Shown here piece after piece: positions 39,285 to 46,575 of a DNA stretch of 64,000 bases. A model generated the notes under the pieces. It was not told the DNA's origin, ran no database searches, and saw only the letters and a program-made list of their open reading frames with translations. The position numbers were made by a program, and so were the translations under genes. The number at the start of each line of letters is the position of its first letter. Position 1 is the first letter of the stretch. Where the stretch lies: positions 601,843,659 through 601,907,658 of the forward strand of contig CM061142.1 of the NCBI GenBank assembly GCA_030789695.1, written 5' to 3'. Source of the DNA: Scilla litardierei (taxonomy: Eukaryota; Streptophyta; Magnoliopsida; Asparagales; Asparagaceae).

Positions 39285-39312
39285 CACTACTACAAAAAGG
39301 ACCTTTAATAGC
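39285..39312 (+). repeat. CAC-1 left terminal inverted repeat
   Basis: CACTACTACAAAAAGGACCT onward. Against the reverse complement of 46548-46575, 26 of 28 positions agree. Confidence 0.93.
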
Positions 39313-39632
39313 ACATCTTTAACAACGCTTGTCAATTATAAGCGCTGCTAATTAGAGACACATATAATAGACAGCGCTTCTTTTTGCAAGCGCTGTTAAA
39401 AGTCGGATAATAGACAACGCTTCTTTCTACAAGCGCTATTAAAGGCCAGATAATAGACAGCGCTTCTTTTTACAAGCGCTGTTTATTAGAGGCACAGATA
39501 ATAGACAGCGCTTCTTTCTACAAGCGCTGTTAAAAGTCGGATAATAGACAGCGCTTCTTTGTACAAACGCTGTTAAATATCAACTAAAAGACAGCGCTTC
39601 CACAAATGAAGCGCTGTTAAAACATCGTAAAA
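39305..39632. repeat. CAC-1 left subterminal repeats
   Basis: About ten copies of AGCGCT in GACAGCGCTTCTTT and AAGCGCTGTTAAA contexts, in both orientations. Expected transposase-binding zone. Confidence 0.88.
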
Positions 39633-42600
39633 AATTTCCGCCCATCGTCAATTTTCCCCCCCAAAGTTTTCGTCCCCCCACCCAAAGATTTTTTTCTCCC
39701 GCACCCCCATCTAAACCCTAGTGACTCTAGCCTCCTCCACCTCCTCCCCGTTCTCTCTTCCGCCCCCGGGCAAACTCGTCATCACCGAACCCACCTTCCC
39801 TTCCTCCCGAAGCCCGCCACTTCCCTTCATCTTCTTCCCCCGATCACACGCCTTGCACCGCCCACACCCCTACGAACAGCAACACCGCCCACATCTCCGA
39901 CTGCCTCTCGAACGACCCTCCTTCCTTCCTCTAGACACCGACAGTCTCGCCTCTCCTTGATCCCTCTCCAGCCACCCCACAAACCGCCGGAGACTCCCCC
40001 TAGATGCCACTCGCCACGCATCCAAGCCATCGTGCCCTCCTGCACCATCACACGCCGTCCTCCCATCGAACTCAACGCTCTGACCACCATCTCGCCAAGC
40101 CCCTCCTCCTACTTCCGACGATCTCCCCGCTACCCCGCCTCACCACTGCCTTGGCGTCGCTGCGGACTGAGCGGTCAGTAGCATCGCCGGCAGTCCCTCC
40201 TCGCTCACGATAACCCTTCGACCTCTGACGTCGGTGCCTTCCCACTCCCGCAGCGGCTCTCCTCCCAGGACGCCAACGGTGAAGAACCTCCATAGTTCCG
40301 ACCAAGCTTTGGTGAGCCTGATGCACTCCATCAAGCTTTGGTGACCTCCCAGATCCGACCAAGCTTCGGACTTTCGAGGGATTTATCTCTTCTCGATTTT
40401 TAAAATATTTAATTTTCCTGTTCTTGACTAGAATTTGACATGTAGAGATTTCTTCAAGTGAAATCCAAATGATCGACATCTCTCAGACTCTTACAAAGCA
40501 TCGAGACCATCAATCGGAAGGCTGAGGAGTTTAATTTGGACAATGAGGCATATCGACAGCCCTCTTGTCATCATCCTCGTTACAACATTCTTGAGGAACT
40601 CAGAGGTCCAAATTGTCAGTTAGCTCTAAGCTTCGACTCCGACCTCCGTGCTTTGACCGAGATCATCATCCGAGCCTCGATCGCTTCCAACCGAGCAAAC
40701 TGAACTATGGATCATCTTCGATTGGGCCGCCATCAGAGCTTCGAGGAAAGATAGACATGGTGTTGACAGATCTCTTCATCCCCATCTGGGCAGATATACA
40801 TGTCCTGAATTTATTCGACTGAGAATCGCAAAATGGATTCCATCATGACGTACTTTGTTCATTGCTTCAAATGAGAGATCGCCTGGGTTCTTTTCACCAC
40901 TCTCTGCCAGGTGTATCTTCTTGTGAAGTGACTATATTTGCATATGATGCTCATTATCGCTTACTTCTGTCCTATGCTCATTTAAATTTGTTGCAATCTC
41001 TCTTTCTCAAATTCACAATGACAACTAGTTCTAGTATACTTTTCTTATGTGGGAATAAATTCATCAGAAAAAAATTGCTTGATGTCACTTTCACACCATC
41101 AATTATTAGTGTCCACTTGACATAGAATCTACAAGAGTAACTGTACCACTGGGTATGTTATTTTGTTGCTATCTCTCTGCATAAAATTCTTAATGATAAT
41201 TCATGGTGGCATACATTCTTTGAAATAAATAAATGAGTTGTAAACAGTTCAAAAATAGAAAAGCTCCTTGGATTTTAGTGTGTTTGACACTTTTATTCAT
41301 CCTTGTTTTACTTGGAGTAGTTTCCTATCTTGAACTCAAAAAGTGAAAACAAATTTTTTTGGGAATATTTGAAGTTTGTGAGAGTAAAATTTGAGTAAAT
41401 AAATGGAAAATATAAATGAAATATTTAAAAGGCAAAGTCTGGTTGTTGGCTGCTCAACTTGTAACTTTTGAGCATATAAGCCCCCTTTAGAGGAAACTAT
41501 TTAGTTTAAATGTCTGTTCATTGATTTTTTTTTTAATTTAGTTCGTACTGGAAGGTCTTGGGGGAAAATGCAGTGTTACATATTTGTCCTAAATAAAAAT
41601 TGTTGGAGACATTTAGGGGTACATGCTGATATTTCTGTCTAAAAGAATATAGCAATAATTTGTTAGGTAGTGAAAGATATTATATAGAGATCATGGAATC
41701 CATGAGATAGAGTACCTAACTTTTGATCACCCTTCCATATTGACGGGATAAAATCAGCTGTTTTGTTAAAACAGTAGACAGCCACATCACAGTTGTCCTT
41801 TCCCATCTCCTGGTTGCCAGATGCTCAAGGAGATTGTTTCAGTTCTGTTTATTGATATGCTGGTTTTTTGAAACCTTGCCAAGAGATGTTGGTTGAGCTC
41901 TTTCTTAACAGTTGTCACTATGTTCTGTTATTCTTGAGCATATATTTAACACACACACGCACGCGCGCGCGTCCAAGGAAGTCATATATTTAAGCCTTGC
42001 TGAAGCAATTGACTTAAGAAAGGTAGCTGTGACAGTTTTATGAAAATAATGGAAGAATCTCAAATATTGCCAAGAGATGTTGGTTGAGGTCTTTCTTAAC
42101 AGTTGTCACTACGTTCTGTTATTCTTAAAGCATATTGTGGGCAAGAGCTTTTGGAATGCGGTAGTTGGGGTGTAGGTAACATTCATGCACACTGCATTAG
42201 ATATACATTATTCAACAATTCCCCTCATTCAGTGGTTTTGTTACATGTAATATAATTCACCAGAGTTCCTATAACGCCAGAACTTTTGAGGGTAAACCAT
42301 TATTCATCTATTAATTACATAAAAAAACTATTAGTCCTCTATCATATGTTTTCATTATACTTCAAATTTCACGTCCAAGCCTTCACCGCCTGATTAACCA
42401 TCACTAGATCATTTACAAATAAGTAACAGTATGTTACCACATCAAACTCGTTTAAATTACAAAAAGGTCTTGGAAAATAGTTGTGTATGTAAGAAAATCC
42501 TGGCAATAGCTATCTGTATATAAGCATATATATTTTTCTTTTCATAGTTTCATTCATCAAGTTCGATGTATCATCATTTATTTGCCTGTGAATTTTGTGA

Positions 42601-42655
42601 CATTTTTAATGTCCTAGCAGAGTTACTATAACATTTTTATGGTGTTCATTGCCAG
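39633..42655 (+). other. CAC-1 left interior, content unrecognised
   Basis: 39717-40330 is C-rich with a Pro/Ser-rich open frame (39721-39960) and resembles a GC-rich 5' exon, but I recognise no protein. 40440-41130 has patchy open frames (for example KAEEFNLDNEAYRQ near 40525) that could be a seventh captured gene; I could not place it. 41130-42655 is AT-rich intron-like DNA, with a (CA)n/(CG)n stretch near 41950 and two copies of GCCAAGAGATGTTGGTTGAG (41877 and 42068) that mark a diverged internal duplication. Confidence 0.4.
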
Positions 42656-44835: not shown

Positions 44836-45605
44836 AACGACCTTGGGAATTCACGTGCTGTAAACGGAGGTGGCAATTCAAAATCTCAAACCTAACCTGC
44901 AAACGGACCAGAAATTCATGAAATTAGGTTTTTTTTTTTGGCCTTGGGCTAAACAGCATATTATCAATATTTGATTGTGCTCTGTATCCATTTATTAGAT
45001 ATGCCAGGTTTTGTTAATGGGCTTGGCTCTTCAGCTATATTTCTATGCAAGATGAATATGTAACCAGTACATGTTACCTCATAATATACCTAATTAATTA
45101 TAATGCTTTCGGTGCATTAAAACCTTGAAGGCTGTGCAAATATTCCTAAATAGCCATTCAACAAGCACTATAATTCCACTTGCCGGGTTTTGGGTACTTA
45201 GGTTCAGGTTTCTATTTGAAGATCAAATAAATATTTTCACGTGGCATGGTTTTTAGTATTTTGTTAATTGATTATGCCACATGGTAGTCTGATGGATCAT
45301 CATCTGGATGCTTAAATGCAATGTGTCTAATTTGATAATTTCTTGAATTATTTCTTATTGTTAGGCATTAGTAAAGGGGAACGCTAACGTTCTAGTACTC
45401 CGCGCTTAATTACAATGTGAAGAATTACACGGTTAGTTCCAACATCTTTATTCTAGTTTCTCAATTATATATCCCATCAATATTCTAAATTTATGTCTAT
45501 TTATTATTATTATTTACTTGGTTTTCATCCATACAAATCTATGCAGTTTCATCATACGAATCGTGGTTAACTTGAAACATTGTTGGCGTGTCTGCAAAGG
45601 CATAG
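44836..45605 (+). other. CAC-1 spacer, AT-rich, no gene recognised
   Basis: Intron-like or intergenic DNA between the aminotransferase and PPR pieces. I see no domain. Confidence 0.4.
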
Positions 45606-45839
45606 CATTATATTTGCATGATTGATCTTCTGGGGAGAGCAAGACGATTGGCGGATGCACGAGCTCTTATGAGGGAGATGCCGATGGAAGTAGATGCCAT
45701 CATATGTGTTGCTTTATTAGGTGCGAGCAGAATACACAAGAACAACAAAGTAGAAGAGGCAGCAGAAAAGATTTTTGAGATGGAACCTGCTCTGGGATGT
45801 ATATTACTGCTGTCGGAAAATGTATTGTTCAATGAGTGA
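45606..45839 (+). pseudogene. Captured PPR protein C-terminal (E-motif) fragment
   Basis: Reads HYICMIDLLGRARRLADA, then MREMPMEVDAIICVALLGA, and HKNNKVEEAAEKIFEMEP. This matches the last PPR repeat and E motif of plant PLS-class pentatricopeptide proteins, which act in organelle RNA editing. Relatives have W in the DA.IW.ALLGAC motif, where this copy has C. The E+/DYW region is missing and the end is scrambled. This piece is intronless, as PPR genes usually are. Confidence 0.85.
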
Positions 45840-46084
45840 TTTAATGGATAATGACTGATAAGTTTTATATGCGATAATGTTTCTTATTTGTATTACGGAT
45901 CATCTTCCAATATCAATGTACATTGTCTAATTTATGTCGTTGAATAAAAGCAATTTAATTTGATTGTTTCTTGTAATGATTGTTTCTTGTAATTTAATAT
46001 TATTGGTGGTTTATTTAAGCATTTTGAACATTAAATGGATCTATTTAAATATAAAACGTAGCGAGAAACAATAAAATGAATTGA

Positions 46085-46575
46085 AATAAGCGCTGTCTAT
46101 CTGGGACCTTTAACAGCGCTTGTTTATTACAAGCGCTGTCTATGGTGGACCTTTAACAGCGCTTGTATTAAAGAAGTGTTATCTAAGGTCCCAATAGACA
46201 GCGCTTCTTTAGTACAAGCGCTGTGAAAGGTCCACCTTTAACAGCGCTTCTTTAGTACAAGCGCTGTTAAAGGCCACCCTTTAACAGCGCTTGCACTAAC
46301 AAGCGTTGTTAAAGGCCCCCCCTTTAACAGCGCTTGCACTAACAAGCGCTGTTAAAGGGGGGACCTTTAACAGCGCTTGCACAAACAAGCGCTGTTAAAG
46401 GGGGGCCTTTAACAGCGCTTGCACAAACAAGTGCTGTTAAAGGTCCCGTTTAACAGCGCTTGTAAAGCGCTATTAAAACCAGCCCCCCCTTTAGCAGCGG
46501 CGAGATAGACAGCGCTTGTAAAGCGCTATCAAAGACCTTATTTAAGCGCTGTTAAAGGTCCATTTTGTAGTAGTG
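46085..46575. repeat. CAC-1 right subterminal repeats and terminal inverted repeat
   Basis: Dense alternation of CAGCGCTTG and AAGCGCTGTTAAAGG in both orientations, many forming perfect inverted pairs. The terminal repeat is 46548-46575, ending GTAGTAGTG. 45840-46084 is AT-rich with nothing recognised. Confidence 0.92.

Follow-up and report, generated by a model that had tools for sequence, protein, structure and literature searches.

A CACTA element of Scilla litardierei with fragments of six host genes in one orientation, and its relatives in the same genome

The element and its ends

The stretch of DNA analyzed here, referred to as the window, comprises 64,000 nucleotides of the Scilla litardierei genome (C13:601843659-601907658 of a 3.68-Gb assembly) and contains, at positions 39285-46575, a CACTA element of 7,291 bp whose interior carries pieces of host genes. 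The element is bounded by 28-nt terminal inverted repeats (TIRs; 39285-39312 on the + strand and 46548-46575 on the - strand), which start with CACTA and are 93% complementary (CACTACTACAAAA...TTTTGTAGTAGTG), and is flanked by a target site duplication (TSD), TAG, at 39282-39284 and 46576-46578. Subterminal arrays of the AGCGCT motif lie at 39336-39640 and 46080-46547; the motif was counted 11 times in 39285-39640 and 19 times in 46080-46575, and it is absent from the 6,439 nt between the subterminal regions as well as from about 3 kb of either flank. All these terminal features had been reported in a preliminary description of the locus and were found again.

No transposase family was detected in the element with Pfam in six frames. 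Matches to the TNP2-type transposase family PF02992 are plentiful in the genome (1887 candidates, 150 of them scored); of the 57 scored matches compared by place, none is within 136 kb of any of 55 places listed for the 3′ module of the family, and no autonomous partner was seen near these places. A search with the 3′ module alone gave 537 candidates (40 scored), so the family is large. The element is thus a CACTA (En/Spm-type) transposon without recognizable transposase and a member of a large family. A Helitron inside the CACTA element was also considered and dismissed, as a simple scan of both strands found no CTRR end with a hairpin.

Captured pieces of host genes

Between its ends the element contains pieces of six unrelated host genes, all six on the + strand: CDPK, ADP/ATP carrier, CDK-like kinase, the mannan synthase CSLA, alanine aminotransferase (AlaAT) and PPR. 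This agrees with the claim of the preliminary description that at least six unrelated genes are carried on one strand. The first module, M1 (39641-40745, +), is GC-rich in its first part and has no assigned source gene; it is common to the related loci L009, L026, and L027 and partly to L010. It overlaps by 3 nt, at a deletion scar (40743-40745), with module M2 (40743-41971, +), in which no host gene was recognized and which is 93% identical to C8:15507073-15508178 (locus L025) over 40743-41877. L025 was rejected as a gene donor of M2, since neither a host gene nor element ends were found there; its scan gave only a retrotransposon capsid match on the + strand and a weak STT3 match on the - strand (E 0.047). 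Near the boundary of M2 and the CDPK capture there is a 65-nt direct repeat, 94% identical (41871-41935 and 42062-42126).

The CDPK capture (41972-42760, +), composed of an intron tail and an exon piece (42656-42760), is 92.4% identical to C13:313582908-313583694, and the exon piece matches CPK16/18/28-like proteins with up to 94% identity over 35 amino acids. The family assignment made earlier holds. The piece is, however, cut mid-exon and the source exon reads on into LTAAQAL, so that the apparent donor site is fortuitous. The carrier capture (42760-43044, +) contains an intron end and a frameshifted piece of the last exon, 94.7% identical to a three-exon gene at C13:136657700-136659894; the frameshift lies near 43030 (placed by eye, with one gap in the donor alignment) and the piece reads CRRMMM where RRRMMM is expected. 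The kinase capture (43040-44147, +) consists of an intron, a last exon (44004-44096) and part of the 3′ untranslated region (3′ UTR), and is 95.5% identical to the small contig C3669 over 43840-44147. Its C-terminus and stop codon matched CLK1, CDK1, and CK2 chains (E 7e-5 to 9e-4), which makes it a CMGC-type kinase, putatively a B-type CDK. The last exon described previously was recovered, whereas its 3′ UTR is matched only to 44147 and is followed by a separate module, M6 (44154-44279, +), which has no assigned gene and also occurs elsewhere in the genome.

The CSLA capture (44278-44640, +) contains, as had been described, two exons with an intact intron, namely an exon piece (44281-44403), the intron (44404-44487), an exon (44488-44586) and the start of the next intron. 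It is 92.6% identical to a gene at C11:184.886 Mb, and its three best protein matches show 84% identity over 99-100% of 74 amino acids, the best named ones being from Asparagus and next from Dioscorea. The AlaAT capture (44653-45232, +), composed of an intron end, an exon (44729-44833) and downstream source sequence, is 91-94% identical to loci L042 and L043, matches Alanine aminotransferase 2 (3tcm, E 8e-14) and has lost about 300 nt of the source internally, at 44844/44849. The last module (45227-46079, +) is the 3′ module of the family and includes the PPR piece (45606-45810). Annotated chimeric proteins from sister copies were also sought: the best protein matches above plain carriers (P0001-P0005) turned out in local alignment to be carriers with repeated carrier parts, and no protein aligning separately to two different fragments was seen among the 120 listed of 4,248 matches.

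Source genes elsewhere in the genome

Multi-exon source genes are present at unlinked places for the carrier, CSLA and, in part, CDPK. The CDPK donor (C13:313583415-313583694, 95%) is the sole match outside three element copies; some 5 kb upstream of it there are two more CDPK exon matches, which run the same way. At the carrier donor three exon matches, the middle one including one counted TAG, correspond to residues 1-382 of an Asparagus protein; other loci, further elements among them, are 94-96% identical. At C12:318.70 Mb a longer piece of the carrier is situated some 0.8 kb from the PPR module, and this locus may represent a state that predates CSLA. At the CSLA donor (C11:184885972-184888913) exon matches span residues 31-431 except 129-155, and two of them have one TAG counted in each. 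The stops counted in the carrier and CSLA matches may stem from intron overhangs. L042 (C12:17.53 Mb) and L043 (C4:295.79 Mb) are 91-94% identical to 44653-44844 and 44849-45232, and comparison with them shows the captured AlaAT exon to be whole, with its native splice dinucleotides; three further loci are 87-94% identical, and any one of the several loci may have been the source. The kinase matches the C3669 copy, which has an in-frame TAG, and a second locus (C13:742562742) at 80%. Of the donor genes that the preliminary description suggested looking for, genes or loci were found for CDPK, the carrier, CSLA and AlaAT, a stop-bearing copy for the kinase, and none for PPR.

Relatives of the element and the order of capture

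When the genome was searched with the element, 123 matches were obtained (2,804 candidates, 40 of them scored), and 20 places were fetched and oriented by similarity to the window element; besides L009, 18 of these are relatives. L009 is a complete sister of 9,234 bp with all six pieces, an additional NPH3-domain piece and a TSD of its own, CCA; because of this the composite is considered to have moved as one unit. All six pieces are also present in L010, where the 5′ end was not found. The sister copies for which the preliminary description proposed a search thus exist, and no sign was seen that the pieces had entered separately with TSDs of their own. Matching TSDs were also found at L015 (CTT), L017 (AAG), L019 (AAA), and L022 (AGA).

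The relatives share different parts of the window element and carry other host gene fragments. L013, L015, L016, and L018 have sequence in common with it from 42760 on (in L016 no 3′ end was found within the fetched stretch), and L011, L012, and L014 from 43063 on; these seven loci (L011-L016 and L018) have at least part of another 5′ half in common. L017 has the ends in common with the window element, together with the kinase and PPR modules. In L019-L024 and L028 it is the 3′ part, PPR piece included, that is held in common, in some of them also the 5′ end, and the interiors are different; L026 and L027 share the 5′ part. Within this 5′ part inverted and direct repeats were noticed in the oriented copies (L026 2853-3941, L027 3400-4500).

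One of the relatives, L018, lacks both the kinase exon and the aminotransferase. Its carrier sequence starts at 42760, does not stop at 43044 and extends as far as the donor was fetched (L018 6780-7203 and 7229-7254 align with L050 1-424 and 426-451), whereas the window element switches to the kinase there. Likewise, CSLA in L018 does not end at 44640 but reaches position 897 of L049, after which L018 continues into sequence common with L019, L021, L022, L023, and L024 that leads into the 3′ module; no aminotransferase match was found between CSLA and the 3′ module of L018. It follows from these states that the carrier was captured before the kinase and CSLA before the aminotransferase, and each later capture removed part of its older neighbor (kinase/carrier, aminotransferase/CSLA). 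At the place of the 3-nt overlap at 40743-40745, L009, L010, L026, and L027 have an NPH3-domain piece on the + strand with about 1.9-2.5 kb of sequence, which means that a seventh fragment is gone from the element in the window.

The joins between pieces, read from match limits and given as raw values without a chance expectation, show overlaps of 1 nt (CDPK/carrier), about 5 nt (carrier/kinase, from the match start in L017), 2 nt (M6/CSLA), and 6 nt (AlaAT/3′ module), and fillers of 6 nt (kinase/M6) and 12 nt (CSLA/AlaAT).

Orientation of captures in the family

The mixed orientations that would have spoken against the first description were not found: six of six pieces align on the + strand, and the - strand of the window element gave no Pfam match at E 1 and no PDB match at E 0.1 in three frames. 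One + frame compared with PDB in the same way returned AlaAT and CDPK, and Pfam in three + frames only the carrier and a weak kinase match; since Pfam missed most of the known pieces on the + strand, whole-frame scans can miss short exons on either strand.

Parts of nine relatives were scanned with Pfam in six frames. Matches above the cut-off, all on the + strand, were DAGK_cat in L017 (47.6 bits, cut-off 23.6), Meth_synt_1 in L019 (159, cut-off 27), NPH3 in L026 (40.1, cut-off 27; also present in L009), IP5 2-kinase in L028 (39.3, cut-off 22.7), and both DUF668 and Peptidase_S10 in L021, where the 5′ end of the element was not found. The methionine synthase piece of L019 (3550-3888) is an N-terminal part of 113 residues without a stop. 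ATP-synt_ab (L019) and P450 (L028) were matched on the + strand below the cut-off. L017, L019, and L009 are bounded by TSDs; at L028 the 5′ module is matched upstream of the fetched stretch (C8:36333517) and the 5′ TIR was not seen. No host gene was found by these scans in the 5′ half of L015 or in L022, and L020 gave retrotransposon domains. L025 was left out of the orientation count, as were weak + matches to Yeast-kill-tox, to Androglobin_II and retrotransposon domains (L020), and to three HAT-repeat domains (L028).

In the strict set, in which each gene is counted once (the six of the window, NPH3, DAGK, MetE, and IP5 2-kinase), 10 of 10 captures point one way (two-sided sign test, 0.002), and with four weaker captures added 14 of 14 do so (0.0001, two-sided). 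The window pieces alone give 6 of 6 (p 0.03). Since it was the window that first drew attention to the pattern, the captures outside it are the fair confirmatory sample, and these amount to 4 of 4 in the strict set (0.06, one-sided) and 8 of 8 in the lenient one (0.004, one-sided). The evidence for a single orientation across this CACTA family is suggestive, not final.

Splice signals and selection

Splice sites were scored with a matrix and ranked among 401 AGs for acceptors and 375 donors. High acceptor ranks were obtained for the carrier (5), the kinase (8), CSLA exon 2 (2), and AlaAT (6); as a correction to the five acceptor-like sites described previously, the CDPK acceptor ranks only 41. 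The site at which CSLA exon 1 begins scores poorly (rank 141), as does the AlaAT donor at 44834 (258 of 375). If CDPK is spliced to the carrier, the frame shifts and a stop follows early, while the chain of CSLA exon 1, CSLA exon 2 and AlaAT is in frame over 118 codons from an ATG. A chimeric spliced transcript is, on these predicted sites, possible. A segment of 67 nt in the 3′ module (45365-45431), lying between a high-ranking acceptor (4/401) and donor (2/375), is possibly a further captured exon.

Among the copies, correctly placed splice sites kept their dinucleotides in 57 of 62 copy-by-site cells, a raw count without a neutral expectation from which the eight AlaAT donor cells were excluded. 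Events were compared in 3 to 16 copies per piece. Nonsynonymous events (86/710 sites, 0.121) are about as frequent per site as noncoding ones (226/2197, 0.103), and for this reason selection at the protein level is not supported; frameshifting indels and four stop-making changes were also seen among the copies, and one 4-nt insertion is common to six of them. When the majority letter is taken as the older state, C-to-T changes amount to 7/40 at CG (0.175) and 27/131 at CHG (0.206) vs. 41/1491 for A-to-G (0.027), and this raised rate fits methylated, silent DNA.

Origin of the composite element and its one-way captures

It is likely that the CACTA element was assembled stepwise from unlinked host genes by break repair and then became mobile as a unit. 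Breaks inside an element copy would be repaired, presumably by gap filling, with DNA copied from unlinked host genes, introns included; some sequence on either side would be lost, and the joins would have a few nucleotides of overlap or filler. The composite would then transpose as one unit, with transposase probably supplied in trans. A different origin is offered by the Pack-CACTA model of Catoni and colleagues, proposed for Pack-TYPE elements, in which two neighboring CACTA copies mobilize as one hybrid together with the DNA between them (PMC8903248, PMC13317346). The differing 5′ halves of the relatives, joined to a common part at 42760, would be compatible with it at that one point. However, no AGCGCT remnant is present between the captured pieces of the window element, which speaks against joining of neighboring elements, the donor matches are widely scattered (on C11, on C12 or C4, on a small contig, and at two C13 places separated by 177 Mb), and the kinase and aminotransferase sit inside older captures that they truncate. 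Fusion of neighbors is thus quite unlikely; the overlaps and fillers at the joins, together with the lack of internal end repeats, favor internal break repair with template switching, of the kind described for animal Pack-TIRs (PMC8277862).

The one-way orientation calls for an account of its own. It may well be, though we lean slightly toward doubt, that the sense in which captured exons are kept, judged by the element ends, is always or almost always the same, either through capture that reads the direction of transcription or through rapid removal of antisense captures. That chance, or a few joint captures, produced the pattern is rather unlikely: the window by itself gives only p 0.03 and the four later strict cases 0.06, and fragments of one relative could have arrived together, yet the ten different genes are each counted once, belong to four differently composed groups (window/L009, L017, the L019 group, and L028) and all point one way, both strands were scanned alike, and the lenient count outside the window also has no exception. 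A mechanistic bias is possible but on balance doubtful; here the donor's transcription (through the displaced sense strand of an R-loop or an unspliced pre-mRNA template), or the element's own, would set the direction of copying. The recognized pieces with a donor are transcribed parts, introns included, and the ten strict captures share one direction, whereas recognition depends on exons and intergenic captures would escape; moreover, gap repair is not known to follow a strand rule. Without strong grounds, we prefer loss at the level of RNA to a mechanistic bias: reverse-oriented captures could be lost because they give rise to antisense RNA, or because the element transcript fails to splice or terminate. 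As for domestication, in which the captured exons would yield a selected chimeric protein or transcript, the 118-codon frame of CSLA and AlaAT, the largely intact splice dinucleotides and the transcribed and spliced exons reported for Tgm-Express1 of soybean (PMC1947982) might be cited for it. It is nevertheless very improbable in view of the early stop after CDPK-carrier splicing, the frameshifts and stops among copies, and nonsynonymous change about as common per site as noncoding change.

Several results pull away from the picture of stepwise capture without protein-level selection and with a single orientation. Synonymous events (41/199 sites, 0.206) exceed nonsynonymous ones per site (p 0.007), and after correction for context the nonsynonymous share is 0.68 vs. 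0.75 expected (p 0.064), with 86 nonsynonymous events vs. 106 expected (Poisson, 0.024); constraint on the copies is at most weak. The comparison of element with donor that the preliminary description had called for gave a Ka/Ks of 0.19 over 236 codons, a value to which the evolution of the element and constraint on the donor both contribute; a constrained donor, or a paralog as source, may account for it, and taken by itself it is no evidence for selection on the element. The nearest match to the kinase is the stop-bearing copy, and no PPR donor was found, the 40 scored matches of 537 candidates being 89-100% identical and many of them elements fetched here. The orientation count started with the window, where the pattern was noticed, and no orientation can be read for the modules M1, M2, and M6, for the 5′ half of L015, or for what was scanned of L020 and L022, since no host gene was recognized in any of them. 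The observation made in the preliminary description is confirmed as real and its interpretation partly supported: the one-way pattern for which it invoked selection or mechanism recurs in the relatives, and the selective part, at the level of protein, is not supported.

Comparison with known systems

The composite kind was already known, and the suggestion that the element is unusual in kind is not supported. Tgm-Express1, a CACTA element at the soybean wp locus, carries five fragments in 5.7 kb; of the 12 different transcripts it gave, 11 include captured exons (PMC1947982). It is similar in having unrelated host fragments, a CDC2-type kinase among them, with introns retained, and exons of all five can be used in one transcript; here six fragments occupy 7.3 kb (seven fragments in L009). 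Tgm-Express1 is inserted in an intron of F3H, and chimeric transcripts of it have been proven (PMC1947982), whereas for the window element such a transcript is a possibility. No family-wide orientation count or assembly order appears in the sections of that report considered. Pack-CACTA and other Pack-TYPE elements are, like the one described here, non-autonomous TIR elements with host coding DNA, and differ in the hybrid-of-neighbors mechanism proposed for them, which is unsupported here (PMC8903248, PMC13317346). The Tpn1 family of Ipomoea nil has an average length of 7,081 bp, conserved ends and interiors replaced by captured host sequence, with chimeric transcripts for one insertion; it belongs to another host, and the sections consulted give no orientation statistics (PMC5105172).

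On wheat chromosome 3B, 140 CACTA-mediated capture events, mostly of gene fragments, were reported; unlike here, these involve 145 genes, hence mostly one gene per event (PMC4290129). Maize Helitrons resemble the element in stepwise capture and carry zero to nine fragments each (PMC3288121), but belong to a different superfamily, and the simple scan found no Helitron-like 3′ end in the window element. Animal Pack-TIRs, for which a gap-filling model was put forward, share breakpoint microhomology of a few nucleotides and fillers copied from elsewhere, and are unlike in being mostly single captures, often near the source, and in animals (PMC8277862). In the literature searched no orientation count for CACTA captures was recognized. 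What is possibly novel is the family-wide single orientation. How do cut-and-paste transposons acquire gene pieces, and why do some of them persist? With the readable intermediate states, the several source genes and the ten one-way captures that the family preserves, two points can be tested directly: internal break repair as the route of capture, and mechanism or antisense removal as the origin of the orientation. If true, directional capture would in general filter the exons that cut-and-paste transposons can shuffle.

Surroundings of the element in the window

LTR-like ends (TGTCACGACCC; LTR, long terminal repeat), in opposite orientation, lie on both sides of the CACTA element (39197-39241 and 46837-46881), the left one separated from it by 43 nt. 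Further to the right, 500 N at 53582-54081 mark an assembly gap or a masked stretch. The window also contains nested long direct repeats that resemble LTRs, at 11082-13731/36603-39241 (93.7% identical) and 13953-17486/20233-23764 (97.9%), of which the second pair is probably the younger. A frame on the - strand, at 29602-32967, is open for 1,121 codons and has, by eye, the look of a Copia-type polyprotein.

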